Shown here: positions 3,546-36,946 of the stretch, piece by piece
Layout: every line of letters starts with the position of its first letter
How positions within the stretch are numbered: the stretch's first letter is position 1
DNA from: Acidobacteriota bacterium
GTDB taxonomy: Bacteria > Acidobacteriota > Terriglobia > Acidiferrales > UBA7541
Direction: 5' to 3'
DNA length: 40,730 bases
Assembly: GCA_003224525.1 (NCBI GenBank)
Contig: QHZB01000250.1
Coordinates: 1 to 40,730, forward strand
Position numbers and translations under genes: made by a program
The notes under the pieces: model-generated
The model's database searches: none
Seen by the model: only the letters and a program-made list of their open reading frames with translations
What the model was told of the DNA's origin: nothing

Positions 3546-3736
3546 CCGAAGATCCTTCAATGGGAGTTCGTAGGACAGGGCAAAGAGCGTTCACAGTGTA
3601 CTACGCGGGGAACGGGGAAATGTTACGGCACGGAGAAGGGAGTCAGGGGGATGGCAATAGGGAATAGGGGAAAGAAGAAAAGCAAGGATCTTCGGCGAAC
3701 CCAGGGCCTCGAAAAGCTTTAAGTAGCTGCGGGAGT

Positions 3737-6488: not shown

Positions 6489-6546
6489 GAGTCTCAGCAG
6501 CGGCCGCCTGGAAGAGCTAGCGAGGAATTCCGGTCAAAGGACGATC

Positions 6547-21960: not shown

Positions 21961-22317
21961 TCAGTGACTGATCGAGTAGCCGTAGGCGCGAATGGTTTCC
22001 ATGGCCTCACTCCGGCTCCCGGCGTCCACCTGTTTTAATATTCGATGGATGTGATTCCTCACCGTAAACTCAGAAAGATTCAACTGAGAAGCGATTTCCT
22101 TATTTGTTAAACTTTTGGCGACGAGAGCCATCAGTTGCTGCTGACGCAACGTCAGATCAGGTCTTCGGGCAGATCGCTTCACCGGGATCTCGTCCACCAT
22201 GTGGGCAACAAAGAGGAAAAGGGTGGAGCAGAGTTGAGGCTTTTCCCCGGTAGACAGCGCGGCAACTGTAAGTCTGGCCGGTCGTTCAATCCGAGCCGCA
22301 ACTATCGAACACAACAA
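21961..22317 (-). pseudogene. truncated LuxR-type regulator (HTH domain only)
   Basis: 118 residues at most, of which the last 93 match the C-terminal half of the intact regulator at 35414-36094: PQLCSTLF, then PDLTLRQQQLMALVAKSLTN, KEIASQLNLSEFTVRNHIHR and ILKQVDAGSRSEAMETIRAYGY. The receiver domain is missing; only a TTG start (22317) without Shine-Dalgarno sequence is available. A fragment LKVVVFDSCGSD in another frame just upstream may be the remains of the receiver. The DNA-binding domain is intact, so a stand-alone regulator is possible, but truncation is the simpler reading. It ends at the left side of the RiPP-like cluster. Confidence 0.65.
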
Positions 22318-22451
22318 CTTTCAGCGTCGGGCGGCCGAAGAGTTCAGAAGCAATATCCGGGAATGACTTCGGGCGGTTTTGGTAGCCATCGACGCCGCCT
22401 AATTTCAAATACCAGGACCGATCAGAGTGAATTTGTGGGAAAAGAGCGAAT

Positions 22452-23831
22452 TCACCCAGTCCGTATTTGGCGCTCATGGTTTCCTGCGTCCTCCGAAGGA
22501 GCTCGGGAGGTACTCTCCGCCAAGGAGTTCTGGTGCGCGCACGAAGTCTCTTGGTCGATCTGCTCGAACAAAATATTCGACGAGCGCAAGCGTGCGGCAT
22601 TCTGGCGAATAGTGCGAAGATTCAGGCGGCCACTCTTCCACGCATAAAAATACCGCGGAATCTTGCTCCTGAGAGCAGCAGTCAGGAGCCGCAGGGAAAG
22701 CCGGGCGCGACGAAATAGGCCGGCAACGCCCGGCTTCGATCCAAGTTCCGCATGCCTCAGAAGGGGTATGTAATTTACAAACGCGCGCGCACGGCTCCGC
22801 CAGGACCCTTCCGCCAGGAGACTCGGCAAAAATCCCGGGGTGACAGACTGCCCGCATTGTGCGGACCAAATCTGTTCTTCTGCCACAGGCTGCAACAGCA
22901 GTAGATCACGAGGGCGCGGGAGGGCTTGGAAGAAACTGTCCGGTACGGGCGCGCCCACCAAGTCGCGCGCGAGCTCCAAAGTAAGGTACATCCAGGTGGC
23001 ACATCCACACCGCATCGACCGCTCGGCGATGCCTGCCCAATTCCAATCTGTGCGCGAATCGAGCAGCAACTTCAGGTCAACTAGGGGAAGCAGACCCTTA
23101 TTGAACCGGTGCCAGCTGGACTGGTGCAGACACAAGTGAAAGAGGAAGTCTTCCGGACAAAGTGTCCGCACTGTTAGCCCCTTGAGATCGACAAGGATAG
23201 ACCGGGACCAATATTCTTCGATCGACATCGGAAATAGTGGTTCGCTGCATTCCAGCTGGCTGTGGACTTCTACCAGCACAGGAGAGGCGCGAAGCCGGAG
23301 CGGAGGAGCAAATTCCTTAACCTGGCTCAAACATCGATTAGGATCCCGGTGCATGGTGAGCACGTCTTCCGGATACTCGTATCCAAGGGTCTGCAGGATC
23401 AACACGGCCTCTGCTCTCTTGCCCGGCGGTACCAACAGGTCCAGATCTGCCATCGGTCGCAAGGACGGGTCGGGATAAGTGGTGTACGCCATGACCACTC
23501 CCTTGAGCGCGAGCGCCGGGATGCCACTCTGCTGCAGGGCTTCGAAAGTCTTTCTCAATTCCTGGCGTAGGAGGAGATTGTGAACTGCCGTGAGACGCCT
23601 GGCCTTGAAAAGCCGTTCCCATTCCGGCGACGCTTCGAGAAAACTGAGGTAAGGCTCTAAACCAAAGGCCACGCAGGGATAGAGATCCCCGGAAGTAGTG
23701 TTGAGAAAATTTGGCCAATTCACTTGGCGCAGCAGCAACACCATCGCTCGATTGTCCAGCGCCTCCGTCTGACGGCCAAGCAAGGCCAGGAGAAGTTTCC
23801 TCTCGGCGCCGCGCTGCTCTTCCATATTCAT
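22452..23831 (-). CDS. nucleotidyltransferase family protein (NTP_transf_5 type) of the RiPP-like cluster
   Basis: A 459-residue protein. The core motif ALKGVVMAYTTYPDPSLRP followed by MADLDLLVP (residues 107-134) is the signature of the uncharacterised nucleotidyltransferase family PF14907: KG, an Arg, and the DxD pair Asp129/Asp131. The C-terminal half is helical with HLCLHQSSWHR and DLKLLLDS. Members often sit beside PqqD, HprK-like kinase and asparagine-synthase genes in lasso-type clusters, where they may nucleotidylate or otherwise modify the peptide. Its ATG overlaps the stop of the peptidase gene (ATGA form). It is the last gene of the minus-strand arm. Confidence 0.82.
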   Translation of the reverse strand: MNMEEQRGAERKLLLALLGRQTEALDNRAMVLLLRQVNWPNFLNTTSGDLYPCVAFGLEPYLSFLEASPEWERLFKARRLTAVHNLLLRQELRKTFEALQQSGIPALALKGVVMAYTTYPDPSLRPMADLDLLVPPGKRAEAVLILQTLGYEYPEDVLTMHRDPNRCLSQVKEFAPPLRLRASPVLVEVHSQLECSEPLFPMSIEEYWSRSILVDLKGLTVRTLCPEDFLFHLCLHQSSWHRFNKGLLPLVDLKLLLDSRTDWNWAGIAERSMRCGCATWMYLTLELARDLVGAPVPDSFFQALPRPRDLLLLQPVAEEQIWSAQCGQSVTPGFLPSLLAEGSWRSRARAFVNYIPLLRHAELGSKPGVAGLFRRARLSLRLLTAALRSKIPRYFYAWKSGRLNLRTIRQNAARLRSSNILFEQIDQETSCAHQNSLAESTSRAPSEDAGNHERQIRTG

Positions 23832-24382
23832 TTTGCGAGCTCACCAGGTTGGGACAGACTCCGAACCAATCGCCGGCGCCAGCGAGCAAGCCACAACAGG
23901 AATTTCGATGCGCGGCGCGCCAGCCGTATGTCAATTTGCAAGCAGACAAGAAGCAGAGTCTCGATTATCCAACTACGCTTTCTCTTCTCGCATTCAAATG
24001 GGACACTGTCGTCAAACACATGCCATTTCCCATTCACTTGGCGCTCCGACACAACGCCCAGAATGGCACTTACCGGGACCGGTAGATCGCACCAGGAATG
24101 ACTGTCACCGCGGGTCAAAACACCCTGACGGCTGCGATGGACAATTCGATGTGCAAAGATCGCACCGCCAGCTACGAACGCTACTACCTGGCCGGGGCGG
24201 TACTCATCAGTTGACAAGGGGCGAATCCGGATGCGGCACCCCGAAGGCAGAGTGCTCCCCATGCTGGTGCCGGAGATCTCGGACTCGATAACCTTCCCCG
24301 ACCGCCCTAACAGAACTCCAAACGCGAGCAATTGATCAGCTGTGGAATCTGGCACGAAGGTGGTGCTTCGGATGCTCCGCAT
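23828..24382 (-). CDS. S26-type serine peptidase (signal-peptidase-like, Ser/His)
   Basis: A 184-residue protein. SGTSMGSTLPSG carries the nucleophile Ser40; RPGQVVAF, FAHRIVHR with His78, and LTRGDSHSWCD follow in S26 order. The lysine of bacterial signal peptidase I is replaced by His, as in Sec11/archaeal enzymes. There is no N-terminal membrane anchor; a hydrophobic segment occurs near the C-terminus (about 138-165). The ATG at 24382 lies five bases after the stop of the membrane-protein gene, with GAGG upstream; the longer frame to 24460 would overlap that gene. In this cluster it is the best candidate for leader-peptide removal. Similar proteins in lasso-type clusters support this, but activity is inferred. 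Confidence 0.75.
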   Translation of the reverse strand: MRSIRSTTFVPDSTADQLLAFGVLLGRSGKVIESEISGTSMGSTLPSGCRIRIRPLSTDEYRPGQVVAFVAGGAIFAHRIVHRSRQGVLTRGDSHSWCDLPVPVSAILGVVSERQVNGKWHVFDDSVPFECEKRKRSWIIETLLLVCLQIDIRLARRASKFLLWLARWRRRLVRSLSQPGELAK

Positions 24383-24387
24383 CTGGC

Positions 24388-25506
24388 TTAGACCTCGTGC
24401 GATTCCAGCACCAAATATGGACCTACCGTCTTCCGCACAAAGGAATCCTTGAACGCCCAAACTAACCCATCCACGTAAAAATGGATCAGCACCAGGGAAT
24501 TCCAGACAATGATGTAACTCAAATACATGCCGATAATCCGGCTGCCCCGATCAATGAAGAGAAAGAACCCACCCAGAAGCAGCAAGCTCACCAGTAACAA
24601 TCGCGGACGCGAACTGAGTCTGATCAACCACTGTTGTGCGAGGGAGCCGGACGTCTGCTGGCCGTATTTGCGGCGATTCAGCAGCCAAATAATTCCCAGA
24701 TATTGGATGAAGTGTCCCATCAGCATGGCGATGGTGGCCAGGAGGTAATCTTTGACCCAGAGGTAAGGATGAAAGAGCAGCAAGCTGGAGATCAGAAACA
24801 CTTGTTCCGGCAACCTCACAGGACGCGGTCTTCGACTCAGGTGAAGGGCGTAACCGCTTCCCGCCACCAAAACGGTCGCTAAACAAACATATCGCAAAAC
24901 TATCGGCGTCCATGGATGAACTCGAACCAGTAGTTGATACAACGGCAAAAAACGGTTCAGGAACCAGAAAGCCATGGTTGCGTTGACTGACAAGATCGTT
25001 AGGTGCGCCCAACGCTTTTCCGTTTGTTCTCCACCGTTCAATCGCCGGTAAAGCGAAAGGACACCGGCACTCTGCAGTGAGACGTGGTAGACGTTCCAGA
25101 CAAAAATTGCAGACTGGACAACTCCCTGGACTGCAAGAGCACGCAGGCCTAGCACGGAAGCGAAGATCACGAGCGGGCCGAGGAAGAAGGCTGCCCAACG
25201 CAGGCGGTAGTAGTCTCGATTCTGGTCTCCCAGATAAAACGTGAAGCTCGACAGGTAGTGGGGGATACCGACAAAGTAAATCGCGAGTTCTCCGGCGGCG
25301 TGACCCCACCTGCTCATTTGATCCACCAAGATAAGCAGCAGGCCGGCGACAGGCGAGAGCGCAAATAGCCCCACGTCATAAGCCGGAGACTCAATCCAAC
25401 CGCGATTCTTTTCTATGGGAGTTACTAGGGCCGCGGATCCTGGGGAGCTAATCTCTGGGTCGGTGGTGCCGCTGGGGAAGTCGCCGCTCCAGCTATGTTC
25501 CGGCAT
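24388..25506 (-). CDS. polytopic membrane protein of the RiPP-like cluster, function unknown
   Basis: A 372-residue protein with about eight to nine hydrophobic helices between residues 45 and 350. Notable polar positions are the motif VGIPHYLSSFTFY (about 80-92), VYHVSLQSAGV, MGHFIQYLGIIWLLNRRKYG and the C-terminal HFYVDGLVWAFKDSFVRKTV. Recurrent His residues in or next to helices could bind metal. The N-terminal 40 residues are hydrophilic. The start overlaps the preceding DUF455 gene by 14 bases and the stop is followed by the peptidase gene after five bases. It could export the product or act as an integral-membrane enzyme. No family can be named. Confidence 0.75.
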   Translation of the reverse strand: MPEHSWSGDFPSGTTDPEISSPGSAALVTPIEKNRGWIESPAYDVGLFALSPVAGLLLILVDQMSRWGHAAGELAIYFVGIPHYLSSFTFYLGDQNRDYYRLRWAAFFLGPLVIFASVLGLRALAVQGVVQSAIFVWNVYHVSLQSAGVLSLYRRLNGGEQTEKRWAHLTILSVNATMAFWFLNRFLPLYQLLVRVHPWTPIVLRYVCLATVLVAGSGYALHLSRRPRPVRLPEQVFLISSLLLFHPYLWVKDYLLATIAMLMGHFIQYLGIIWLLNRRKYGQQTSGSLAQQWLIRLSSRPRLLLVSLLLLGGFFLFIDRGSRIIGMYLSYIIVWNSLVLIHFYVDGLVWAFKDSFVRKTVGPYLVLESHEV

Positions 25507-26251
25507 GTTTTTTCCTTGCGTTACGATCCGCGGCGGCGAACCGCACTTCCTCGGGACTGAAACCTGCCTCCAGTCGGCCCTGTTCGTTGGTGGTGTACTT
25601 CACACTGTCGATGGCCTCCTGACCCATGACTGACAGAAATGCTTCAGAAGCTTGGTTCAGGGCTCGACCGACGCGCATGACGTTCATGGGGTTGCTCTTC
25701 GTAGCTTGCGCGATATATTCATTGGCAAAACGGACATGACCTATCTCGTCGGCAAGCTGCGCCTCGAACAGATCGGCTAACTCGGAATCCCCTGCGTCGC
25801 GCGCCTTCTGAATTGCAGGTTCCACGGCGTCTACGCCTTCGGCTTCGAATGCTCGATTTTGCACTGCCAGTCTGCCGACCAGATTGTCAATCTTGGTGAT
25901 GATGCGATATTGGAAGTTCAAAACCGCATAACGCCCCAACCACCCACCCCGGCGTTCAAGGATCCGCCGAAACATCAGCACATGCCGGGCCTCATCGGCA
26001 GTTTGACGCGCGATGGACATACGCACGCTCCATTCCGCGTCAGGAAAATCGGCCAAATTCCGCGCCGCGTTCTCCATGCCGTTGATCTCCTCGTTCATCT
26101 GCCGGTGAAAAAACTCCAGGTCTCGGTCGGGGTGGGTGTCCGGCAAGTTCAGGCATTCCGACCACCTCTCCTTGACGTCAAAGCGGGAATCGCGCGCCGG
26201 CCCCGCCGCGAAGGCGGTTGCTTCTATCGAGTTCGTGTTGCTTGTATTCAT
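25493..26251 (-). CDS. DUF455-family ferritin-like diiron protein, copy B
   Basis: A 252-residue four-helix protein. Metal-ligand motifs are visible in order: EEINGMENAARNLADFP (Glu60 region), DEARH (residues 86-90), NRAFEAEGVD and ADEIGHVRFAN (Glu169, His172). Two ExxH pairs with two further Glu are the diiron signature of ferritin-like oxygenases and of DUF455. The ATG at 26251 has GGAG six bases upstream; a longer frame to 26290 is less likely. It is separated from copy A by 147 bases but overlaps the next gene. The expected chemistry is O2-dependent oxidation or hydroxylation; in this cluster the precursor peptide is the obvious candidate substrate (inference). Confidence 0.82.
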   Translation of the reverse strand: MNTSNTNSIEATAFAAGPARDSRFDVKERWSECLNLPDTHPDRDLEFFHRQMNEEINGMENAARNLADFPDAEWSVRMSIARQTADEARHVLMFRRILERRGGWLGRYAVLNFQYRIITKIDNLVGRLAVQNRAFEAEGVDAVEPAIQKARDAGDSELADLFEAQLADEIGHVRFANEYIAQATKSNPMNVMRVGRALNQASEAFLSVMGQEAIDSVKYTTNEQGRLEAGFSPEEVRFAAADRNARKKHAGT

Positions 26252-26398
26252 GGGGTTCTCCGTGTTTGCGAAAAATAACCGCGATGACATTCTCAGGAAA
26301 CCTTAGGACCATCGAGGAATCAAGGAGTCACTAACTCACCTTTCCTGCTTTTCGCCTCTGCCCATTTGGGCGGACAGCCAGTGAATCGTTGAATCTGT

Positions 26399-27196
26399 CT
26401 ACGCCGGGGCTCCCGCACTGGCCAGCGAACTCATGCCTGCCTGACGCAGGATCTCATTGATTTCATCGTCGCTGAAATCCGCATGGCGACGGTCTTCGAC
26501 GTTGATCCCCAGCTTCTTGTGTTGCTCAGCCGAAGTTTCTCCAGAATTCGCGGACGTCTCGCCAGCAAGCGCCGAATTCGTATCCGCAAGAAAGCGCACC
26601 GCGCTGGCGACCTTAAGCAAAAGCCGTCGATCCGCTTGGACTAACTTCCGGATCCACTGGTTCGCGAAGCGCACGTGATTGATCTCATCGGCAAGGATGT
26701 GCTCCAAGACTTCCGCAGTTCTCTCATCCCCAACCGATCGCCAGATTTGCCGCAGAGACCCAAGCAGGTCCATTTGTCCAGCCTCAAAGGTGCGGTTCTG
26801 GATGGCAAGCCGAGCGGCCAAGGTGTCGCACATGTTGGTGACGGCCCATTCGAAATTCCCAATCGGGAATTCGCCCTTATAGCCGCCGAGCTGCCGCAAC
26901 CGCTGGTGGAGGCCGTGAACGTGCCGGCTCTCGTCGAATGCCTGCCGCGCCAGTTGCATGCGTAGGTCCCAAGGTGATTCGGGAAAATCGGCAAGACACT
27001 GAGCGGCGATCTCGAGCGCCCCCATCTCGTTATTCATATGACGATGGAGTCGTTCACGACGGGCATCTTCGGACATGCCGTTCTCAAATTTCTGCATCTC
27101 GTTGTCGAGCTGTGCCACTCGAAAGCACGGTTCACGGGCCGGGTCAGCACATAGAGTGACTCCCTGCACAGTTTTTCGATTGGAAGAAGCGCTCAT
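26399..27196 (-). CDS. DUF455-family ferritin-like diiron protein, copy A
   Basis: A 265-residue paralogue of copy B with all ligands: MNNEMGALEIAAQCLADFP (Glu62 region), DESRH (88-92), NRTFEAGQMD (Glu138) and ADEINHVRFAN (Glu171, His174). A C-terminal extension (about 205-265) contains the tandem GETSANSGETSA and an acidic DFSDDEINEILRQAG that is absent from copy B. The ATG at 27196 overlaps the TGA of the preceding ferritin-like gene (ATGA), so translation is coupled; the longer frame to 27274 runs through that gene. Copies A and B may form a heterodimer, as their conserved cores match but their tails differ. Confidence 0.82.
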   Translation of the reverse strand: MSASSNRKTVQGVTLCADPAREPCFRVAQLDNEMQKFENGMSEDARRERLHRHMNNEMGALEIAAQCLADFPESPWDLRMQLARQAFDESRHVHGLHQRLRQLGGYKGEFPIGNFEWAVTNMCDTLAARLAIQNRTFEAGQMDLLGSLRQIWRSVGDERTAEVLEHILADEINHVRFANQWIRKLVQADRRLLLKVASAVRFLADTNSALAGETSANSGETSAEQHKKLGINVEDRRHADFSDDEINEILRQAGMSSLASAGAPA

Positions 27197-27759
27197 GCGC
27201 TCGCCTCCCGCGCCAGCGTGGCGCCGCTGCCCTGCACCACAAAATCGCTGATCGCACTTTCTTGCCGGGACCATCGCTCTGCTCGCTCGGGATCGAACAC
27301 CAGAGTTTCCCGGAGCTCTGCCCGAACCTCTTCGCTCTCTTTCCGCATACGTGCATAGTCGTTAAGGATTCCCTCAATCACCCGGAAGCTTGGTTCGTCC
27401 AGCAAGGAGTCGGAGTTCTGCAGGTATTGCTGATATCGAGCGGCCAAGCCGGGCAAAATGACGTCGTAAACCGACTGGAGCCTGCCTGTCGTGTCCTCGA
27501 CCGACGCCAGTTCGTTCATCGTGCTGAGGTGCAAGGGAAGCGGCGCGAGCGTGTAGTGCATCGGAGCCCGCAGCTCGAACGTCCTCTTGCCGAGAGCGTC
27601 GGCGTGTTGAGCGGCATCCCAAATGTGGCGTCCCATCAACACCTTCACTTCCATCTCAGGTGTGGTAGGAACCCATCGGGCGAGCGTCTCCATCAGGAAC
27701 ACTTCCAGCCACCGGAATGTTGCAAGGTGCTCGGCTTTCTCCCGCAGAATCAGTCCCAT
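27193..27759 (-). CDS. putative ferritin-like protein of the RiPP-like cluster, hypothetical
   Basis: A 188-residue helical protein. The segment METLARWVPTTPEMEVKVLM followed by GRHIWDAAQHADALGKRTFEL (residues 23-63) places Glu24, Glu37, His45, Asp48 and His52 in helix-compatible spacing. A second helix pair holds DEPSFRVIEGILNDY (121-135). This looks like a divergent four-helix diiron protein related in style to DUF455, but I cannot name a family. AGGAGG lies four bases before the ATG. It overlaps the kinase gene by 10 bases and the DUF455 copy A gene by four, so the three are translated together. Confidence 0.65.
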   Translation of the reverse strand: MGLILREKAEHLATFRWLEVFLMETLARWVPTTPEMEVKVLMGRHIWDAAQHADALGKRTFELRAPMHYTLAPLPLHLSTMNELASVEDTTGRLQSVYDVILPGLAARYQQYLQNSDSLLDEPSFRVIEGILNDYARMRKESEEVRAELRETLVFDPERAERWSRQESAISDFVVQGSGATLAREASA

Positions 27760-28790
27760 AAACCCTCCTTCAGAGTTTCTTCAATCAAGTCCGCCGTTTC
27801 CTCCGGCGATCCACCGGGGTCCAAGTGCCACCAGCGTGCCTTGCCCAATGTTCGGAACAGCTGGAGCGCCCGCTCGGCTGGCGGATAACCCCAAACGCTC
27901 GCCAACAACGGTGAAATGGGCGGAAGCTCTCCCCCGCTAGGGGTGAAGCGCTCCACTACGGGCCGTGGCGCAAACCGGCGAAGAAAGAAAACGTCGGTGA
28001 GCGGCACAACCTGGGGGAGGGCTCGAGGAAAAACCGTTCCGACTTTCGTGCGTACTCGCTGCGTCCCGTCCGGAAGTATCTCCGTATCGCACGAATGGCC
28101 TTGCAAGTATTCATTGAGCCCTGCTGCTTGCAGCCCAGGACGGATGGAAGCCGCCCGTCGCAGCGGCAGAAGCTCGCCAGTCAAAGACGAGATCGCCGCC
28201 CACTCGTCTCCGAGAAAAGCGTGACCCCGAGACGCAAAGCAGAGTGACAAGGTGGTCTTCCCCGTCCCCTTGGCTCCGGAAAGCAAGACGCCGCTCCCCG
28301 AGATGCCTACGGAAGCAGCGTGGAACAAGTAGACATCGGGCTGCAGCCGAAACGCGCTGCTGATCGCGTAGAGAGCTATTGGGTGTTGCCACGGATGGTT
28401 CCGTGAAACCAGAATTCCGGATGGTCCGAAGGCAAGCACGGGTGTATCGGGAGCCTCAGGCAACGCCAGCATCTTCCATCCTGTAGCACTCTCTTGGCAC
28501 TCCAGGTAGCGACGCTCGGGAACCAACCGGCGCATAAAATCGGCTCCATCTGGCGGGTTGGGAATGAGCGAAACTGCCAGCACGCTGGAGTCAGACGGAA
28601 GGCCCGCCACCCGGAAAACGACGTGCGACGCGGTCATGTCTTCGTTCGGCTCGACCGCGCATTCACCATAAATATCTTTGAAGCGCCGCGAAAAGGCGCG
28701 GTCCTTGCACTCCATTCTCAGCAATGTCTGTCCGAAACGATACCACTCCTTCTCCGACTTGCCCGACAGAGTTGCAAACTCGCTCCCCAT
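27750..28790 (-). CDS. HprK-like P-loop kinase of the RiPP-like cluster
   Basis: A 346-residue protein (361-362 if a GTG at 28838 is used). The C-terminal half resembles HPr kinase/phosphorylase: LFHAASVGISGSGVLLSGAK followed by GTGKTTLSL (P-loop at about residues 172-179), and GHAFLGDEWAAI with the conserved Asp. The N-terminal half (about 1-150) is a separate domain. HprK-related kinases occur in lasso-peptide clusters, where they phosphorylate the peptide C-terminus (paeninodin and ThcoK systems). Here the gene directly follows the precursor gene, so peptide phosphorylation or activation is the likely role. Ser35, Thr40 and Thr44 of the precursor are possible acceptors. The start is uncertain; the ATG at 28790 has GGA five bases upstream. 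Confidence 0.78.
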   Translation of the reverse strand: MGSEFATLSGKSEKEWYRFGQTLLRMECKDRAFSRRFKDIYGECAVEPNEDMTASHVVFRVAGLPSDSSVLAVSLIPNPPDGADFMRRLVPERRYLECQESATGWKMLALPEAPDTPVLAFGPSGILVSRNHPWQHPIALYAISSAFRLQPDVYLFHAASVGISGSGVLLSGAKGTGKTTLSLCFASRGHAFLGDEWAAISSLTGELLPLRRAASIRPGLQAAGLNEYLQGHSCDTEILPDGTQRVRTKVGTVFPRALPQVVPLTDVFFLRRFAPRPVVERFTPSGGELPPISPLLASVWGYPPAERALQLFRTLGKARWWHLDPGGSPEETADLIEETLKEGLWD

Positions 28791-28825
28791 CGTGTCCGCG
28801 CCGGGCGGCCATTTGGCGCAACGGG

Positions 28826-28975
28826 TTATCCCCACCACATGTGCGTTCCCGCAGCAGTGACTTGAAAAGCGCTCAATACCTCCTCTTCGGTCAAAACCTT
28901 GATGCGCGGAGCCTCGTATTTAGGCCTTTGCTCTTTCTCAGGGGGCTTCGGTAACTGTTTCTGTTTTTCGTCCAA
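28826..28975 (-). CDS. putative RiPP precursor peptide, 49 residues
   Basis: A short peptide translated from a TTG at 28975 preceded by GAGGAG with ideal 7-base spacing. The N-terminal 19 residues are Lys/Pro/Glu-rich. A leader-like block follows (YEAPRIKVLTEEEVLSAF, residues 20-37), then a short, uncharged C-terminus ending THMWWG. Tyr20-x-x-Pro23-x-Ile25 resembles the YxxPxL motif by which PqqD-like recognition proteins bind lasso leaders. After Glu32 there is no Asp, Glu or Cys, so neither a lasso macrolactam nor a thioether ring can form in the core. Trp47 and Trp48 are striking. The gene lies between the PqqD-like and kinase genes, the usual place for a precursor. Confidence 0.72.
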   Translation of the reverse strand: MDEKQKQLPKPPEKEQRPKYEAPRIKVLTEEEVLSAFQVTAAGTHMWWG

Positions 28976-28998
28976 GGAAGTGCTCCTCACACAGATAG

Positions 28999-29274
28999 TT
29001 AGATTTGGGACGACGTCAAACACTTCGTAGAAAGCAATTCGTTCACTGTCTGTTCGACGTCTCGAATTGCCTCCGTGAGGCTGACCCCGTCAAAATGATC
29101 GCAAAGCTTTTGCGCAAGTTCAGTCACCGTGCAGGGCCGCTCCAGTTGATTCCAAAGGAAAGCGGCCGTGGCGTTCAATAGGCAGAATTTATTGGTTTCC
29201 GGTTGAAACAGGACGCTCTCATTCTTCATGGGAGCGAGGTCTACAGCTGGATTTCGAGACACTTTCAGGGACAT
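28999..29274 (-). CDS. PqqD-like RiPP recognition protein
   Basis: A 91-residue PqqD-family protein. The block SVLFQPETNKFCLLNATAAF, then LWNQLERPCTVTELAQKL and AIRDVEQTVNELL, is the small winged-helix RiPP recognition element that binds precursor leaders and hands them to modifying enzymes (known for PqqD and lasso B1 proteins). The ATG at 29274 has GGAG eight bases upstream; the in-frame start at 29289 is less likely. It is the first gene of the minus-strand arm, 80 bases from the promoter at 29361-29389, and is followed after 23 bases by the precursor gene. Confidence 0.85.
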   Translation of the reverse strand: MSLKVSRNPAVDLAPMKNESVLFQPETNKFCLLNATAAFLWNQLERPCTVTELAQKLCDHFDGVSLTEAIRDVEQTVNELLSTKCLTSSQI

Positions 29275-29360
29275 AATATCCGCTCCCACGCGCGAAGCGT
29301 AAGCAGAAATTTAGCTGGGGGGCTATCGGCTGCGGGGGACATCACGCTTAGCCATTTGCG

Positions 29361-29389
29361 ATTCTATTCTCGCCACACTGACGTGTCAA
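29361..29389 (-). promoter_or_regulatory. strong sigma70-type promoter of the minus-strand RiPP arm
   Basis: On the minus strand TTGACA (complement of 29384-29389) and TAGAAT (complement of 29361-29366) are separated by exactly 17 bases. The -35 is a perfect consensus and the -10 differs at one position. Transcription should start near 29354, giving a leader of about 80 bases before the PqqD-like ATG. No other good promoter is visible between the overlapping genes of this arm, so it probably drives the whole set. Confidence 0.7.
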
Positions 29390-29532
29390 GTCAGACTTCG
29401 GCTTCTCAGCATCCAATATTTTTTTCATTTGCAGCAATAAACTTCGAACAACAACCTGATCAAAAGCCTTTCCTCTGACGAGTTCCAAAATCGATGGAAA
29501 AATACGGCCAATTTACTCGCAATTTACTCCTG

Positions 29533-29560
29533 TTGACTGTCGCGCTCTCCAGGTCATAAT
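29533..29560 (+). promoter_or_regulatory. promoter of the plus-strand arm, predicted leaderless start
   Basis: TTGACT (29533-29538) and CATAAT (29555-29560) are 16 bases apart; each hexamer matches five of six consensus bases. The -10 ends six bases before the ATG at 29567, so transcription would begin at or next to the start codon. No Shine-Dalgarno sequence precedes this ATG, consistent with a leaderless message. Confidence 0.55.
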
Positions 29561-29566
29561 ATCTCG

Positions 29567-30469
29567 ATGAGTTTGCGGCAAATATCGGACGCGCTCCTTC
29601 ACTGGGCCCCCTTGCGCAATGTTGCCGGTGGATGCCTCCGCGCGTTGGCAGTGGGGATCGTTTTCTATTTCGTTGTTTACTTGTTGGAGCGAGCCTCGGG
29701 AGGAACAACCCAACAATATCGCAGCCGGGGCTTCCTGCAAGACGTGGCTTATTGGTTCTACTACCGCAGCGGACTGAACCAGCTTTTGTTCATGGCTGCG
29801 TTTTTCAGCTTCCTGGGTTCTAGGCTCGCTTTCTTGCAGCTAAGGATAGTGGGCAGTCTGCATCCCATCGTGCGGGGAATCCTCTGGATTCTGCTTGCTG
29901 ATTTCTGCAGCTATTGGGTTCACAGGCTTCAACATGCGAGCCGCTTCGTGTGGGCGTTCCACGCCACACACCATGCGCAGGAACAACTGAACTTTGCGAC
30001 CACGGTCCGCTTCCATCCAGTGGATCACTTCATCTCCGATACTCTGAAATTCGTCCCTCAGATGACATTGGGGGCGTCTCCGATGAGCTGGCTCCCGCTC
30101 CACTTGGTTATGGAATTTGTTTTGAATACACAGCACAGCAGGATCAAATGGCGCTTTGGGGTTCTATCAAGAGTATTCGTTACCCCCTGGTTTCACTCCT
30201 TCCACCATTCGACTGATCCGCGCCACTACAACAAGAACTTCGGCGGCTTGCTCAGCATCTGGGACCACATGTTTGGAACGGCCGTGGACGCTCCTGAGCA
30301 GCCCTCAGAGTACGGCCTGGAGGATGTCAAGATGCCAACCCTCGTGAGTACGTTTGTGGTACCGTTTCGTCTTCTACGCCAGTTCAATGACCAGGCTTCG
30401 TCGAATTCAAGCAACGCCCGAAACGCAATCGTAATTCCCAGATCTGCTGGCGAGCCTCCCCGTGGATAG
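29567..30469 (+). CDS. fatty acid/sterol hydroxylase superfamily membrane protein (diiron)
   Basis: A 300-residue integral membrane protein with the three histidine boxes of the superfamily: HRLQH, HATHH and FHSFHH (residues about 120-217), plus HPVDH between them. Helices lie at about 22-40, 65-85 and 95-118. These boxes bind a non-haem diiron centre that hydroxylates or desaturates aliphatic chains with O2. The start has no Shine-Dalgarno sequence and probably lies at the 5' end of a leaderless transcript. It is the first gene of the plus-strand arm, divergent from the PqqD-like gene. A lipid or a lipid part of the final product is the plausible substrate. Confidence 0.86.
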   Translation: MSLRQISDALLHWAPLRNVAGGCLRALAVGIVFYFVVYLLERASGGTTQQYRSRGFLQDVAYWFYYRSGLNQLLFMAAFFSFLGSRLAFLQLRIVGSLHPIVRGILWILLADFCSYWVHRLQHASRFVWAFHATHHAQEQLNFATTVRFHPVDHFISDTLKFVPQMTLGASPMSWLPLHLVMEFVLNTQHSRIKWRFGVLSRVFVTPWFHSFHHSTDPRHYNKNFGGLLSIWDHMFGTAVDAPEQPSEYGLEDVKMPTLVSTFVVPFRLLRQFNDQASSNSSNARNAIVIPRSAGEPPRG

Positions 30470-30688
30470 GTTTTTGCCGGCTTTACTTTGCAACTGGGCC
30501 TGCCTGGTATCCTCCCACTAGCTGTAAGTCTACATTTTGCACTAGATGAGAGTCTCTGACCTTTGGGAGTGTCGAAGGCCCGTTAAATCCCGAAAACCCT
30601 TAGAGTTTGCTGCGACTGGATTTCAAATTGTGACAGCCAGAATTTGAGTTCGTCACCGAGTACAATGCCCGCACCCTGGAGGCTCAAG

Positions 30689-32038
30689 ATGGAAAATCAG
30701 GATCAAGCAGCGGCCGATTGGTCACGCGTTCAACTTTTCGCGTTTCGATTCGCCTTTGTGTACCTTATTTTGTACTTCCTTCCGTTCCCCTTCGGGGCCT
30801 TTCCTCACACTGGCTCACTCGCGCAAAAATACGAATCACTCTGGCACAAGCTTGTGCCTTGGGCCGGCAAGCATGTCCTTCACTTGAGTCACGAGATTAT
30901 GACCTCTACGAACTGCAGCGGTGATACCACCTACGAGTATGTGCGGGTCTTGTGTTTTCTCGGCCTGGCCTTCGCTGCCTCTGTTCTTTGGTCCTTCCTC
31001 GATCGATCCCGCCCAAACTACCAACGGATTCACCAGTGGCTCCGGTCGTACGTCCGGCTTTCGGTGGGAGCCGCGATGCTGGTGTTCGGAGCCGCTAAGA
31101 TTTTCCTGGTGCACTTTCCCCAGCCAAATCTTTGCAAACTGCTCGAGCCCCTCGGCGATTACTCTTTGATGGGCTTGCTCTGGACCTTTACGGGGGCTTC
31201 TCGGGGCTACAGCGTATTTGCCGGCTGTGTGCAGATGCTCAGTGGCATTTTGCTTTTCGTCCCACGGCTGACAACTCTGGGAGCTCTCGTTGGCCTTGCG
31301 GTCTTTTCGCACATTTTCGCTCTCACCGTGTGTTATGACGTGCCGGTTAAGCTCTATTCCTTGCATCTTCTCCTCGTCTGCTTCTTTCTTGTTCTCCCGG
31401 ATGCGCGGCGGTTAGTTGACTTCTTCTTGCTCAATCGAAGCGTGGCACCCTGCCGCGAGACCGCCCTGTTTAATCACAAGCCTCTAAACGCCAGCGCCTT
31501 CATCGCGCAATTGACGTTGGGCGGATTTCTGGCCTGCTCCTACCTCTATGGAGCGCACGATTACCAAAACCGGCTCTTCGGCATGGCTTCTAGGCCGCCG
31601 TTCTACGGCATCTGGGTTGTGGATGAATTCACGCTCGGCGGGAAGGCGCTGCCTCCGCTATTGACCGACGAGACCCGCTGGCAGAGGGTGGTCTTTCAGT
31701 TTCCCAAAAAGGTTGGCATTCAGTCCATGAACGGCGCGTGGACGGGATACTGGGTGCGCGAGGACATGGCGAAGAAGACCTTTGCCATGGAAAAGGCCAA
31801 CGGTCTGAGGAATGAGATCGAATTTACCTTTTCAAACCCCGATTCGCGGTCGCTGACTTTGGAAGGAAGCGACAATGGAAGCGCGATTCGGGTGAAACTC
31901 CACCGCGTGGACGAAAAACAAATTGCGCTCCTCGGCGGGGGCTTTCACTGGATCAGTGAGGATGCTGATTTGGTGACAGACGAGGAGGGCGTTTGCGATC
32001 ATGTCAGGCGGGCGGGGGGCGCGCTTTTGGCGCGGTGA
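30689..32038 (+). CDS. DoxX-like multi-pass membrane protein, function unknown
   Basis: A 449-residue protein. The ATG at 30689 is preferred because GGAGG lies six bases upstream; the TTG at 30644 has no such site. Membrane helices occur at about 12-32, 85-108, 125-145, 170-190, 193-235 and 280-302. LVFGAAKIFLVHFP and VGLAVFSHIFALTVCYDVPVK (split over two helices) recall DoxX/HTTM-type proteins. The C-terminal 140 residues form a soluble beta-rich domain (GGKALPPLLTDETRWQRVVF and onward). It lies 219 bases after the hydroxylase gene and 148 bases before the secreted-protein gene. No enzymatic motif is visible. Confidence 0.72.
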   Translation: MENQDQAAADWSRVQLFAFRFAFVYLILYFLPFPFGAFPHTGSLAQKYESLWHKLVPWAGKHVLHLSHEIMTSTNCSGDTTYEYVRVLCFLGLAFAASVLWSFLDRSRPNYQRIHQWLRSYVRLSVGAAMLVFGAAKIFLVHFPQPNLCKLLEPLGDYSLMGLLWTFTGASRGYSVFAGCVQMLSGILLFVPRLTTLGALVGLAVFSHIFALTVCYDVPVKLYSLHLLLVCFFLVLPDARRLVDFFLLNRSVAPCRETALFNHKPLNASAFIAQLTLGGFLACSYLYGAHDYQNRLFGMASRPPFYGIWVVDEFTLGGKALPPLLTDETRWQRVVFQFPKKVGIQSMNGAWTGYWVREDMAKKTFAMEKANGLRNEIEFTFSNPDSRSLTLEGSDNGSAIRVKLHRVDEKQIALLGGGFHWISEDADLVTDEEGVCDHVRRAGGALLAR

Positions 32039-32186
32039 AAACTCCGGCGTGGCCTTCGATAACAGCGAAGGCCTCACTGTGGTCAAGGCCATCTGAGTTT
32101 GACACGAGAGGGTGACTAGCATATGGTTTTTTCGCAGTTTCGAGGTTGCAATGGGGAATTCCGGCTGCCCTTCGGGGGAGATTCCA

Positions 32187-33371
32187 ATGGAGCACCGAAG
32201 CAGTTTCAAACGGTTGGTGTGTGTTTGCATTGCCGCTGTGGTTGGTGGCTTCGTCGCGACGCAAACTGCGTTCGCGCAAGCACCCTCACGAGGAGCGATT
32301 GTCCAGATGGACCGTGGAAGCTTTCACCAGCACTTGAAAGCACTCGGATACCGAACGCGCGGCGGTATAGGAAAGAACAAGACGGACAGCAACGATGAAC
32401 ACTTCCGATCGCTGCCGCACTTCTCTTCATCGTTCACGGTTCGAGGTGTCACATTCCCTTACACGATGTTGGGCCATCCGCCGCGGTCGGGCCGGCCGGC
32501 GCACATTCACTCCGTCCTCGTTCCTTTGCGGATGAAATTCGTCGGTTTCGGGCCAAACCACGACGTGGCTGTCACCTTCGATCCCAAAGATGCCGTCACG
32601 AACATCCTTCATTCGCCGATATACCAAGACGCATCGTTCGCCAACGGGGTCGGGCAATTCAACGACATGATGCAGCGGGCAACCTTCTGGAACAAGATGG
32701 ACGCGGAAAGAAAGTGGCACGTCAAATTCGCGCCCCCGAAGATCATGCATACCATCGACATCGAGGTCGGTCCCGAGATTGGGACGCTGATTCAATCGGG
32801 GAGCGTCGTCTTTGGTGACGTTCTGTTCGATTTCTTCGATTCACTGGCTAGAACCATCATTAAGGTCACAGGGGTGGATCCGGACGAAGTACCAATCTTC
32901 GTTACACAAAACTGTACGGCTGAGTCGCGCGGATACCACAGGGCCTTCTCCATTCCGAACGAGGATGGCAGCGAGACGTTTCAGACCGCCATCTATGCCA
33001 GCTGGTTTGACCCGGCCCTCATCGACCCACAGTTTGCCGACGTCAGCGCCCTAAACCACGAAGCCGGCGAATTGTTCAACGATCCTTTCCTCAATAACGC
33101 CGTTCCCGAGTGGCGGAATCCACCCGAAAGCGACCCCGCGGCGGGATGCGCCTTCAACCCGCTCCTCGAAGTGGGTGATCCCCAACATAACAACCAGACC
33201 CTTCGCGACTTCCCGGTCGTGGCCATCTCTGTCGATGGCGTCACCTATCATTTGCAGGATCTAGTCATGCTGCCGTGGTTCGCCGATGAGATCCCCTCGT
33301 CAGCCGAGAACGGTTGGTACGATTTCCCAGCGACGACCGAGATCACCGCCCCGGCCGTGTACTGTCACTGA
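32187..33371 (+). CDS. secreted protein with HExxE motif, putative metallopeptidase-like
   Basis: A 394-residue protein with a clear signal peptide (core LVCVCIAAVVGGFVATQTAFA, cleavage near residue 30). The ATG at 32187 has GGGGGAG five bases upstream; earlier in-frame starts are not supported. Residues 290-298 read NHEAGELFND (His291, Glu292, Glu295), similar to the S/NHExxEaxtDP motif of some secreted metallo-hydrolase-like families. Elsewhere the protein is beta-rich with few cysteines (ESRGYHRAF, AAGCAFNPLLEV). It is exported and could process or bind the mature product outside the cell. Context within the RiPP-like arm is the only link. Confidence 0.72.
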   Translation: MEHRSSFKRLVCVCIAAVVGGFVATQTAFAQAPSRGAIVQMDRGSFHQHLKALGYRTRGGIGKNKTDSNDEHFRSLPHFSSSFTVRGVTFPYTMLGHPPRSGRPAHIHSVLVPLRMKFVGFGPNHDVAVTFDPKDAVTNILHSPIYQDASFANGVGQFNDMMQRATFWNKMDAERKWHVKFAPPKIMHTIDIEVGPEIGTLIQSGSVVFGDVLFDFFDSLARTIIKVTGVDPDEVPIFVTQNCTAESRGYHRAFSIPNEDGSETFQTAIYASWFDPALIDPQFADVSALNHEAGELFNDPFLNNAVPEWRNPPESDPAAGCAFNPLLEVGDPQHNNQTLRDFPVVAISVDGVTYHLQDLVMLPWFADEIPSSAENGWYDFPATTEITAPAVYCH

Positions 33372-33525
33372 ACCACCGGTATTTGAGATCTTCGTGCTAG
33401 CGAAGTGGGGTTCACAACGAGCTTCGCCTCGCTACCGCCAGAATTCACGAGCTTCCTACGGGCCTGCCCTCGTTGAAGTGGAAGTCGGATAATCGGTTGA
33501 GTCTCCGGGAAAAATCTACCAAGTC

Positions 33526-35514
33526 ATGAGCGGTATACTCGGTTTTGCTGGTAACACCCTGCAGACGGTGCACGTTGGCCAGCTCCGACGCGCTCTGCGG
33601 TCTCTCGAGCAGCGGGGGCGAGACGTCCGCAGCATTCTCGTGTTCAACAATTCTGAACCTTCTTCGTTGTTTCTCGACGCAACTTCCGAGCGCTCGCACT
33701 CCTCTTTCCGTAACTCACGGGCCCCAAATGACATGGCGACTGCAATGCTGGCGTACTGTCACTTCGAGGAGGAAGATCGCTCCGACGCCCTAAGCCACTC
33801 CTTGGCTTCGGAAGATGGTCAAGTCTTTCTTGCTTGCGACGGCGTGGTCGACAACGGCTCAGAGCTGAGTCAGGAGCTACAGAAGTTCGGTCACGACCTC
33901 CGATCCAACTCGCCACGCGAGATACTGCTTGCCGCCCTCGAGCAATGGGGACCCGAGTGCCTGGCCCGAGTTAGAGGAAGTTTTGCTTTCGCGGCACTGA
34001 ACTTTCATCGCCGTAGTCTGATTTTAGCGCGGGACGCCTTTGGAACTAGACCCCTGTTCTATTCACGTCCAGATTCCATGGGGTTGTTTTTTTCATCGCA
34101 GATCGCCGCCCTTCTGGAACTGACCTCTGCCGCCCCAAAAGTTAACCGCGCTAGCCTCTACCGATATTTGGCCCACAACACTATGGACCACGCTCCCGAG
34201 ACCTTCTTCGCAAGCATTTCGCAGGTCCCCCCCGGACATTACCTCGAAGCGCCTCTCGACAAGCCAAGCGCGTTCTCCGTGACACCTTATCGCCGCGTGG
34301 TTCCGGTTCAAACGAAGCTTTCATTCGAAGAGGCCGCCGAATGTCTCAGGGAGTTAGTCGTTCGCTCAGTGACTTCCCAAGTGGGCGCCCAGAATTCTCT
34401 CGGCGCGGCCCACTCTGGAGGGTTCGATTCTTCGTTTGTTGGTGCAGCCTTCGCGCGCACTCATCCGGACTGGCAGCTGCAGCTATACACCTGCGTCCCA
34501 ATCGTAAAAAATGGCGCCTTCTCAGAAAGCGAAGAGACCTGGGCAGATTTGGCCGCCTCTGGCTTCCGCTCGTCCATCAACAAAGTGCGAGTTTCGGCGG
34601 AGGCTTTACCAGGAGAGTTTGACTCCCTGATTTGCCTGCACGAAGAGCCATTTTCAAGTCCTGTAGTCTTTGCTCAGCTGCAACTATTTCGGGCTGCCCG
34701 TGATAATGGGGTGCGCATGATGCTCAGCGGCCAAGGCGGCGATACCCTATTTGCTACCTCCGCAAACCAACTGCTCCGTGCCGTGCTTGCGCATTTTCGT
34801 CGAGGCCGTTGGGGGAGCGCTACGGCCCTGTTCGAAGCCGCAGCTCATCTCCCACAGGGGAGTTTTCGCCAGCTGGCCCGTGCTGCCACGCGAACCGTTC
34901 TACCAGGGGGCCTGCAGGCGTTTGCAAGGCGGCTCGCCCGCCAGCCTCATCCCGACTGGCTCAAGGCGGAATGGTTCGAACTCGACTCCGCTTTGCCAAA
35001 GAGCGATCTTGGCCTTCCCATACTCCGGTTCGAGGACCGCAATTCCGTCGCGTGCTCGATATTGAACCGCATGCCCTTGCTTACAGTCGAGCTCCAGAAT
35101 TTCGTGCGGTCTCTGCCGGCGGAGTACTTGGTTACAGCGAACCAGCCCTTGAAATCCATTGAATGTGCGGCCATGCGTGGCCTGGTGCCTGATGCGATCC
35201 TGGCCCGCAGGGAGAGATCCGGGTTTCCTGTCCCGGTCAGAGAATGGCTTGACGAACTGGCTCCGTGGGTGGATAGGAACAGAACGGAAATAATAAGATT
35301 GCCGTTTCTTGAGCCGCATCGAGTGCGTCAAGTTCGGGAGTCAGACCGCTCGCAAAAAGCTTCCGTGTCTGCAGCGTTCTTGGTCTGGCGATGGATTTTC
35401 TTGGCTGGCTGCGCTATAGGAAGTAGCCGTAGGCGCGAATGGTTTCCACAGCCTCACTCCGACTCACGGCGTCCACCTGTTTTAATATTCGATGGATGTG
35501 ATTCCTCACCGTAA
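33526..35514 (+). CDS. asparagine-synthase family protein (lasso-cyclase-like), glutaminase Cys replaced
   Basis: A 662-residue protein with an N-terminal class II glutamine-amidotransferase-like domain (1-210) and a C-terminal ATP-pyrophosphatase domain. The N-terminus is MSGILGFAG: the catalytic Cys2 of true asparagine synthases is Ser, so glutamine hydrolysis is unlikely. The PP-loop HSGGFDSS (297-303) and SGQGGDTLF (401-409) are intact, so it should adenylate a carboxylate, as lasso cyclases do. The last 33 residues lie antisense to the LuxR gene (101-base overlap) and look unlike the family, suggesting an extended tail. It is the terminal gene of the plus-strand arm and the best candidate for amide-bond formation on the precursor. 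Confidence 0.85.
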   Translation: MSGILGFAGNTLQTVHVGQLRRALRSLEQRGRDVRSILVFNNSEPSSLFLDATSERSHSSFRNSRAPNDMATAMLAYCHFEEEDRSDALSHSLASEDGQVFLACDGVVDNGSELSQELQKFGHDLRSNSPREILLAALEQWGPECLARVRGSFAFAALNFHRRSLILARDAFGTRPLFYSRPDSMGLFFSSQIAALLELTSAAPKVNRASLYRYLAHNTMDHAPETFFASISQVPPGHYLEAPLDKPSAFSVTPYRRVVPVQTKLSFEEAAECLRELVVRSVTSQVGAQNSLGAAHSGGFDSSFVGAAFARTHPDWQLQLYTCVPIVKNGAFSESEETWADLAASGFRSSINKVRVSAEALPGEFDSLICLHEEPFSSPVVFAQLQLFRAARDNGVRMMLSGQGGDTLFATSANQLLRAVLAHFRRGRWGSATALFEAAAHLPQGSFRQLARAATRTVLPGGLQAFARRLARQPHPDWLKAEWFELDSALPKSDLGLPILRFEDRNSVACSILNRMPLLTVELQNFVRSLPAEYLVTANQPLKSIECAAMRGLVPDAILARRERSGFPVPVREWLDELAPWVDRNRTEIIRLPFLEPHRVRQVRESDRSQKASVSAAFLVWRWIFLAGCAIGSSRRREWFPQPHSDSRRPPVLIFDGCDSSP

Positions 35515-36094
35515 ACTCAGAAAGATTCAACTGCGAAGCGATTTCCTTGTTAGTGAGCCCTTTGGCAACGAGAGTGACCAATTGCTGCTGGCGCAAAGTA
35601 AGATCGGGCTTTGAAGCTGAATTCTGGAGAGATATCTCCCTGGCCACTTGAGCCACGAAACGGAATAGCGTGGAGCATAGCTGGGGAGGGCAGACGGCCT
35701 CGCCGCGGAAGACGGCACGCACCGCGGCAACAACATCCGAGGCAGATGCGTCTTGCAACAAATAACCGGTTACTCCGGAACGAACGGCAGCCATGAATTG
35801 CACTTCGTCAGGCTCCATGCCAACCAGGACGATCTTAAAGCCAGCTGGCGTTCCACTCTTGCCCGCAAGACTTGCAGGAAAGTAGGCGGGCAGGAAGGAA
35901 TCGCCCACCAAGACGTTGCACTGAGTCTCAAGGATGCCAAGCGGTGTTTCGTCAGCGGGAGAAGTTTGGCCGACAACCATAAGGTCGGGCCGCTTGCGGA
36001 AGAGTCGAACCAAGGCTTCGCGCAGGAGGCGATTCTCAATCAGCAAGAACGCGCGTATAGACAAAACGGGAACGCAGTCATTCATGGATGACAT
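35414..36094 (-). CDS. NarL/LuxR-type response regulator, intact
   Basis: A 226-residue regulator with a receiver-like N-terminal domain (about 12-130) and a LuxR helix-turn-helix (DLTLRQQQLVTLVAKGLTN, KEIASQLNLSEFTVRNHIHR, about 165-220). The receiver keeps an Asp in VLVGDSF, but the usual Lys in the GYLLK region is Gln (GYLLQDAS), so phosphorylation control may be altered. The gene is convergent with the asparagine-synthase gene and overlaps it by 101 bases. A truncated paralogue at 21961-22317 lies at the other end of the cluster in the same orientation. It is a plausible regulator of the cluster or of the exopolysaccharide locus. Confidence 0.85.
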   Translation of the reverse strand: MSSMNDCVPVLSIRAFLLIENRLLREALVRLFRKRPDLMVVGQTSPADETPLGILETQCNVLVGDSFLPAYFPASLAGKSGTPAGFKIVLVGMEPDEVQFMAAVRSGVTGYLLQDASASDVVAAVRAVFRGEAVCPPQLCSTLFRFVAQVAREISLQNSASKPDLTLRQQQLVTLVAKGLTNKEIASQLNLSEFTVRNHIHRILKQVDAVSRSEAVETIRAYGYFL

Positions 36095-36537
36095 AAGCTT
36101 AGAGTAGGGAACGCTGCAAAAAACAAAGGAAGGGCCAACGAAACCAAAGCCTGGCCGTCAACCTAAGCAGAAAGAGGGTAAACTTAGACTCTCATAAATG
36201 TCAACGAAAAATGTTTCATAGACCTATAATTGAAGAAGCGAGACGTACTCGCTAGCTTACTAATAGGGACTATTACCGAAAATTGTATTGGTGCGGTACT
36301 GGGAGTAAGAGGCTTGCCCGGCAGAGACAGAAAAGTAGAGAAATTCAGATCACAGTGTCGCCTTTTGTTGACATATCCAAAACTACGACACTCCTGTCCG
36401 TGATAGGTCAATCTTGGTACCTACCTAGAAGTCTGTAGTACCTGCCACGTGAATGAACCAGCCCCACCTTGTGGGTCCTTTTTGATTCTTACTTCAACTT
36501 GCTTAAGGACGGAGACTTACGGCGCATGGAGTGTGCC
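36095..36537. other. 443-base divergent intergenic region
   Basis: This lies between the minus-strand LuxR gene and the plus-strand receiver-only gene and is more AT-rich than its surroundings. A perfect TTGACA stands on the minus strand (complement of 36199-36204) facing the LuxR gene and another on the plus strand (36368-36373), but neither has a convincing -10 at normal spacing. TATAAT occurs at 36223-36228 on the plus strand. No gene is seen. Confidence 0.4.
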
Positions 36538-36915: not shown

Positions 36916-36946
36916 AGAATTTCAAGCCCGCGCCCGGGGAGAAATT

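Follow-up and report, generated by a model that had tools for sequence, protein, structure and literature searches.

Of the systems described so far, the one that comes closest to the gene cluster considered here is the linear polyphosphorylated peptide (LPP) module of Bacillota, in which a RiPP (ribosomally synthesised and post-translationally modified peptide) recognition element (RRE), a SpI-like peptidase, an HprK-like kinase and an NTP transferase accompany precursors with a YxxP motif, often within polysaccharide loci (PMC13381572, Nat Commun 2026). According to the portion of that paper drawn on here, the signal-peptidase-type LppS, which requires Ser, His and Asp residues, removes the leader together with the RRE LppB, and LppK phosphorylates Ser3 of the core; deletion of LppN brought no change in that study's test. 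The precursor consensus is given as YxxPxVLxHQxIxFETxxS, the core set includes an MsbA-like exporter, and LPPs are said to be restricted to Bacillota (PMC13381572), the main text containing none of the terms Acidobacteri, Gemmatimonad, Pseudomonadota, Proteobacteria or oxygenase. Here we analyse a 40,730-nucleotide stretch of Acidobacteriota DNA (the window; contig QHZB01000250.1 of GCA_003224525.1, an assembly of 516 contigs that is 98% complete) which holds, at 22452 to 35514, a similar module joined to two DUF455 proteins and a third ferritin-like protein, FER188. We propose that this trio oxidises the Trp-Trp (WW) end of a ribosomal precursor, a reading to which we give a probability of roughly 0.6; that the cluster encodes a RiPP pathway is very probable.

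The minus arm of the cluster comprises nine close-packed genes, from 29289 down to 22452, most of which overlap and are therefore likely to form one operon; a divergent plus arm begins at 29567. At the head of the minus arm stands a PqqD-like RRE (28999..29289, minus strand; PF05402 1.8e-14, with lasso PqqD models below cut-off), followed by the precursor peptide (28826..29023, minus strand, start codon uncertain), which bears a YxxP motif, FQV and a C-terminal GTHMWWG. The genes of the trio lie on the same strand: FER188 (27193..27759), a ferritin-like partner without a conserved ExxH; DUF455 copy A (26399..27196; PF04305 1.4e-29 for a longer frame, to 27274); and DUF455 copy B (25493..26290; PF04305 4.4e-23), both copies being putative diiron oxygenases. 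A short precursor with a conserved leader motif is thus found beside an RRE, a peptidase and modifying enzymes, and the RiPP reading is further favoured because the similar set-up of LppS, LppB and LppK has been tested biochemically, as the consulted part of PMC13381572 reports. Family searches and open reading frames recovered all of the genes that an earlier note, written from the sequence alone, had named in two divergent arms, and its claim of a non-canonical RiPP cluster containing no B2 protease was borne out; the product features that it also named, amide-modified and lipid-associated, are conjecture.

Co-conservation is one ground for the proposal. We compared 24 loci (window counted, duplicates removed; numbered with the prefix L) by tblastn of the window proteins at E 1e-3. 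Twenty-one of them had been retrieved via DUF455A and two (L038 and L039) via FER188, so the presence of these bait proteins is not evidence, whereas that of the other genes is. FER188 is matched in 24/24 loci (partially in L063) and DUF455B in 21/24, after three rows that were actually A had been discarded. The HprK-like kinase is matched at 22 of the 24, PqqD and the S26 peptidase at 20 each, the nucleotidyltransferase NTP5 at 14, the membrane protein MP372 at 12, the asparagine-synthase homologue AsnB also at 12 (L060 adds another Asn synthase by Pfam), the FA_hydroxylase at ten and the DoxX-like protein at five; missing genes at some loci are explained by contig ends. Most of the gene set recurs in Acidobacteria, Gemmatimonadota and Proteobacteria: titles of the 21 contig-scan loci name Acidobacteria, Vicinamibacteria, Gemmatimonadetes/Gemmatimonadota and relatives, and also Ramlibacter monticola, betaproteobacterium GR16-43, a gammaproteobacterium, a proteobacterium and one metagenome-assembled genome (MAG; L063, whose contig title, Bordetella parapertussis MAG, is probably wrong). 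By contrast, 11 control loci with a distant fused homologue (L105-L115, 6-20 kb) and four weak-hit DUF455/FER188 loci (L041-L044) match only FER188 or DUF455, and the other 12 window proteins have no match in these 15 loci at the same threshold. The observed grouping of genes is real and well beyond chance, and homologues of the cluster genes do co-occur elsewhere.

Strong relatives of DUF455A (E < 1e-99) were found in three further same-genus genomes among 101 searched, own counted, and strong relatives of FER188 in three genomes from other families of the phylum, among 199. Wider sampling with profile A5 (E 1e-15) recovered 6/396 genomes of the window's phylum (four strong, window included, and two of the fused type), 14/298 genomes of the phylum of L053 (five strong, nine fused) and 2/399 genomes of Ramlibacter's order, and added no full cluster to those already compared. 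Among plasmid-borne sequences, tblastn with DUF455A gave 11 matching records, none of which reached 60% identity or covered 80% of the query. At the betaproteobacterial locus L061 the genes for PqqD, precursor, A, FER188, B and S26 follow one another compactly and the kinase has no match, which argues for the trio rather than phosphorylation as the constant element. A flavoprotein (PF02441), methyltransferase-like and JmjC/cupin-like proteins adjoin this compact cluster (L061:8743-9339 and 4484-7732).

Precursors were sought near PqqD or before the kinase in all frames, by a YxxP-like motif and without requiring WW, and tblastn matches to them were extended to recover further copies. The total came to 22 copies in 20 loci (L046 and L047 hold two each), with WW near the C-terminus in 21 of the 22, across 19/24 loci, and followed by 1 to 9 residues. 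Among these 21 copies, Y..P and FQ[VILM] are each present in 20, and [STC] directly precedes WW in 18, the exceptions being the window, L053 and L059; the preceding residue is Ser or Thr in 15 copies and Cys in three loci. Counted from the aromatic residue of YxxP, WW lies at a distance of 26 residues in most copies (17); three copies have 30 residues, and that of the window has 27. This near-constant spacing, kept despite tails of such different lengths, favours WW as the target. L052 and L057 yielded no precursor; in both, the contig begins inside the kinase match. The remaining, precursor-like frame, in L065, may be a true variant or a sequencing frameshift.

The diiron ligand set E, ExxH, E, ExxH is present in both DUF455 proteins and not in FER188. 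In copy A, E57, E89xxH92, E138 and E171xxH174 are invariant in 7/7 sequences, as is the corresponding set in copy B (7/7), and in a wider alignment each ligand is kept in 22-24 of 24 rows (22-23 for A) with no substitution, the misses being gaps at L058 (extraction cut) and L065 (contig end). Moreover, A and B form reciprocally monophyletic sister clades (supports 0.78 and 0.85), which suggests that both paralogues were kept during spread across phyla. FER188 shows no conserved ExxH among 23 aligned sequences and is itself probably not an oxygen-activating protein. It has no family match, but its predicted structure is a confident four-helix bundle (AlphaFold2, mean predicted local distance difference test (pLDDT) 90.8), in agreement with the earlier note's identification of a third ferritin-like protein. 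The top VIA-align match of this model, spanning nearly all of FER188, is toluene 4-monooxygenase hydroxylase chain B (Z 17.2, root-mean-square deviation 2.8 Å, 177 aligned); Dps-like proteins and ferritins score Z 15 to 16, a lead for chain B of only ~1, and Foldseek with the model returned nothing under E 0.001 (best 0.0059). We take chain B to be the non-catalytic beta subunit of that enzyme. Multicomponent diiron monooxygenases combine a catalytic ferritin-like subunit with a ferritin-like subunit that has no diiron site. A stand-alone fused protein of ~440-450 aa, whose N-terminal part resembles FER188 and whose C-terminal part resembles DUF455, occurs at L105-L115 (9/298 genomes of the phylum of L053 and 2/396 of the window's phylum, E < 1e-15), where no RiPP genes were matched beside it, and suggests that the two parts work as one unit. 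Taken together, the missing ExxH, the chain B fold and the fused relatives argue for a physical complex of FER188 with DUF455. Of the additional O2-activating metal proteins that had been claimed for the cluster, co-conserved putative ones are indeed found, but FER188 has no conserved ExxH and MP372, a candidate, had been left uncounted.

The remaining genes of the minus arm, all on that strand, encode an HprK-like kinase (27750..28838; PF07475 3.2e-6 and TIGR04352 5.9e-10, both below cut-off), an archaeal-type signal-peptidase-I-like leader peptidase of type S26 (23828..24460, start uncertain; TIGR02228 7e-6, below cut-off), a nucleotidyltransferase, NTP_transf_5 (22452..23831; PF14907 5.1e-44), and MP372 (24388..25506), a polytopic membrane protein. 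Because the HprK, S26, lasso PqqD and lasso cyclase matches fall below curated cut-offs, these names hold at superfamily level. Catalytic motifs are well kept, namely SM, HR and GD of S26 in 20/20 sequences, the P-loop K and T and a downstream D of the kinase in 22/22, and the DxD of the nucleotidyltransferase in 14/14.

The genes and their co-conservation are observed, as are the pattern of the precursors, the conservation of catalytic residues and the predicted fold of FER188; on this basis we propose the following pathway. The PqqD-like protein would bind the YxxP motif of the leader, and A, B and FER188, the last as a structural subunit without catalytic function, would form a heteromeric diiron oxygenase that acts at a fixed distance from this recognition motif on the near-C-terminal WW. 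Oxidation would most likely fall on tryptophan, as hydroxylation, quinone formation or a cross-link; the pathway is favoured because the genes are co-conserved in 24 loci, against no RiPP gene in the 15 controls. Where present, the kinase and nucleotidyltransferase would add phosphate-linked groups. The signal-peptidase-like protein may then cut behind the FQVT(x)(A) stretch to remove the leader, which would leave a product of ~7 to 9 residues in the window, and MP372 and the His-box hydroxylase may act on or handle this product in the membrane. Compact versions of the cluster are carried by GR16-43 (L061, a finished genome) and Ramlibacter monticola KACC 19175 (L060), so the action of the DUF455 pair on a Trp-Trp peptide is directly testable. 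A bolder idea, and an improbable one, is that a ribosomal Trp-Trp dipeptide gives rise to a redox cofactor or metal ligand that is free and can diffuse; this product would then be a small-molecule counterpart of tryptophan tryptophylquinone, made in the way of pyrroloquinoline quinone, the split, duplicated DUF455 diiron complex would represent a new class of RiPP oxygenase, and the membrane metal proteins would use or finish the product.

Several observations weigh against oxidation at WW by the trio. A WW precursor was seen at only 19/24 loci: all-frame reading found none in L063 or in L064, the latter of which has the enzymes, and the 22nd copy (L065:2270-2520) keeps the leader YxxP and has lost the WW end. 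L063, with its partial FER188 and its DUF455A match, has none of the other cluster genes. Direct profile comparison aligns FER188 only weakly with copy A (hhalign E 0.024, probability 2%) and places Ala opposite the first Glu of ExxH, so the loss of ExxH rests on a weak alignment and the kinship of the two proteins on the fused proteins and the fold; FER188, which also retains a nearly invariant His and further acidic residues, may still bind metal. Gene-to-gene distance correlations are moderate (Spearman 0.10 to 0.67) and are not taken as proof of co-inheritance; modules may therefore have been exchanged. In L061 the nucleotidyltransferase match lies ~7.6 kb from PqqD, with other possible tailoring genes adjoining. 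Unlike in LPP, no ABC transporter is present among the 15 Pfam-scanned window proteins (22452-40465), and an ABC-ATPase-like frame (2790-3560) is 19 kb away; no exporter of any kind was recognised in the window's cluster. Lastly, the target could be another residue, either the Ser, Thr or Cys before WW or the C-terminus. It is possible, although we consider it the less probable course, that the diiron complex alters such a residue, for example by oxidative cleavage or decarboxylation, and that WW merely anchors the peptide in the active site. The frequency of [STC] before WW and the variable tails after it fit this, and L061 combines its PF02441 flavoprotein, which we take to belong to the LanD superfamily, with a precursor ending in Cys; yet [STC] is missing in three copies, the window's included, whereas WW is the sole pair kept in all 21. 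It is unlikely that the main product is instead made by the kinase and nucleotidyltransferase, as in LPP, with the diiron proteins as a tailoring add-on. The RRE, SpI-type peptidase, HprK-like kinase and NTP transferase are similar and lie beside polysaccharide genes, the kinase is as widespread as stated above (22/24), and the Ser or Thr before WW offers a possible phosphorylation site in 15/21 precursors. However, L061 does without a kinase match and the nucleotidyltransferase is unmatched in 10/24 loci (some on short contigs), whereas FER188 is constant; moreover, the precursors do not show the consensus HQxIxFET, and in three loci WW follows a Cys. Still more doubtful, and in our view very unlikely, is that the ferritin-like trio serves iron storage or defence against peroxide and that its adjacency to RiPP genes is a frozen accident. 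The conserved diiron ligands would also fit a ferroxidase or peroxide-scavenging role, bacterioferritins are the best solved relatives of profile A1, though weakly (E 0.0018), and ordinary ferritins and Dps score just below toluene 4-monooxygenase for FER188; against this stand the repetition of the A/B/FER188 set, its linkage in three phyla and the 15 unclustered homologues without RiPP genes. Oxidation of the WW end by the trio remains our preferred reading.

Hardly to be credited is the idea that this is a lasso cluster with the Asn-synthase homologue as cyclase and a B2 protease encoded at another site of the genome. Such a B2 homologue exists, as a check suggested by the earlier note revealed: a search of the own genome with PF13471 gave one match, on contig C20 (G000:C20:32484-32819; L069, L075), and none on the window's contig C509, and PF13471 is present in 7/11 genomes searched, own counted. 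The 20 kb around it hold no match to any of the 15 window proteins, so this B2 does not account for the cluster genes. Two same-genus genomes carry B2 close to matches to window proteins, PqqD in L077 and both Asn synthase and PqqD in L078, which suggests that separate lasso-type loci may exist beside the cluster. A second, distant PqqD-like protein is encoded in the own genome at G000:C140:14245-14487 (L002, L076). The YxxP leader motif is compatible with a lasso peptide and the lasso PqqD and cyclase models do match, albeit below their cut-offs; the cyclase model NF033535 scores 156.7 bits against a cut-off of 525, and a general Asn-synthase model scores AsnB higher, at 218.9, likewise below its cut-off. 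However, the window precursor has no Asp or Glu after FQV to serve as the ring partner that a lasso requires at core position 7-9, and such a residue after FQx is absent in 19/21 copies, L060 and L061 carrying one Glu each and the flag on L058 being a pattern artefact. Only half of the loci have an Asn-synthase match, and an S26 peptidase is present instead of B2. A canonical lasso cluster is thus rejected, given the absence of a nearby B2, the absence of an acidic partner and the inconstant cyclase homologue, and the earlier label 'lasso-like' is misleading, given also that the LPP module is closer. Phosphorylated lasso peptides of the paeninodin and Bsf type share with the cluster a PqqD-like B1, a kinase, a nucleotidyltransferase and a YxxP leader, but here, unlike in those clusters (PMC10368454, PMC8498205), there is neither a B2 nor a lactam-ring partner, and S26 and the diiron trio stand instead.

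Turning to the membrane and plus-arm proteins, MP372 has four invariant histidines (H83, H141, H265 and H342) together with an invariant Gln and Asp in an alignment of 12 sequences, and may represent a new family of membrane metal enzymes. Its predicted model has a pLDDT of 78.9. No Pfam or PDB relative was recognised, the best Z by Foldseek and VIA-align being 5.9, which is not proof of a new fold; Pfam searches of the 12 members gave scattered weak matches, among which an iron permease family scored best (0.0031, 4/12 members). A likeness to carotene dioxygenases, also considered, found no support from Pfam, Foldseek or VIA-align. The plus arm contributes three accessory genes on the plus strand. 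The membrane fatty-acid-hydroxylase-type His-box protein (FA_hydroxylase, FAH; 29567..30469; PF04116 5.5e-27) keeps its His boxes in 10/10 sequences. The DoxX-like membrane protein (30644..32038) is so labelled by inspection only, no family exceeding its cut-off, and has matches of 72-79% identity in L045-L048, where it is placed between MP372 and S26. In AsnB (33526..35514; PF00733 8.2e-39) Ser replaces the catalytic Cys2: the window protein starts MSGI, whereas nine of 11 others start MCG (of the other two, L059 is cut and in L064 no MCG start was seen), so the window's homologue is probably unable to use glutamine.

Around the cluster, a polysaccharide-export gene adjoins at 36947-40465, and a MazE-like antitoxin and PIN-like pair lies upstream at 20646-21326. 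None of the 23 other loci matches the secreted protein (32112-33371), the LuxR gene or the SLBB gene, and a search of 22000-36000 found no tRNA. Elsewhere, a formyltransferase family clusters in 8/24 loci (L045-L048, L050, L053, L054 and L062; PF00551 in three tested members), an HTTM-type membrane family likewise in 8/24 (one member tested), and Wzz-like and sugar-transferase genes lie downstream in L045.

Among the matches listed in the open-access literature, none described a peptide family of this composition, no titles or abstracts had a ferritin-like diiron enzyme or DUF455 acting in a RiPP cluster, and no chemistry was indicated for DUF455 in the papers that mention it. With regard to known oxygenases, the likeness is to the toluene 4-monooxygenase hydroxylase, in which catalytic and non-diiron ferritin-like subunits are paired and on whose chain B the predicted model of FER188 superposes. 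Here, however, the putative catalytic subunits are DUF455 proteins in two paralogues with a likely peptide substrate and, unlike in multicomponent monooxygenases, no reductase or Rieske protein is present among the annotated cluster genes. A second comparison is with the MNIO (DUF692) enzymes, the fold of which is a barrel. In the part of PMC13060819 drawn on here, these non-haem multi-iron enzymes modify a RiPP precursor with partner proteins, and the nitrilobacillin cluster likewise includes an Asn-synthetase-like enzyme; the window differs in its ferritin-like bundle and its precursor.

The closest parallel remains LPP, as far as the consulted text of PMC13381572 extends. The window too has a discrete RRE, an HprK-like kinase, an NTP transferase and an archaeal-type signal peptidase, whose Ser, His and Gly-Asp motifs would match the LppS residues by motif rather than by alignment; moreover, it shares the YxxP leader, an F..T stretch before the core and a neighbourhood of polysaccharide genes. 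This suggests a range beyond Bacillota for the signal-peptidase RiPP module that was published in 2026. Unlike in LPP, a longer stretch, which ends in FQ[VILM] and often a T, stands in place of HQxIxFET (by inspection), and the diiron trio, the WW core, the four-His MP372, FAH and the set of phyla set the window's cluster apart. The processing module thus resembles published LPP (PMC13381572, in the part consulted), and the new part is the diiron trio together with the WW core.

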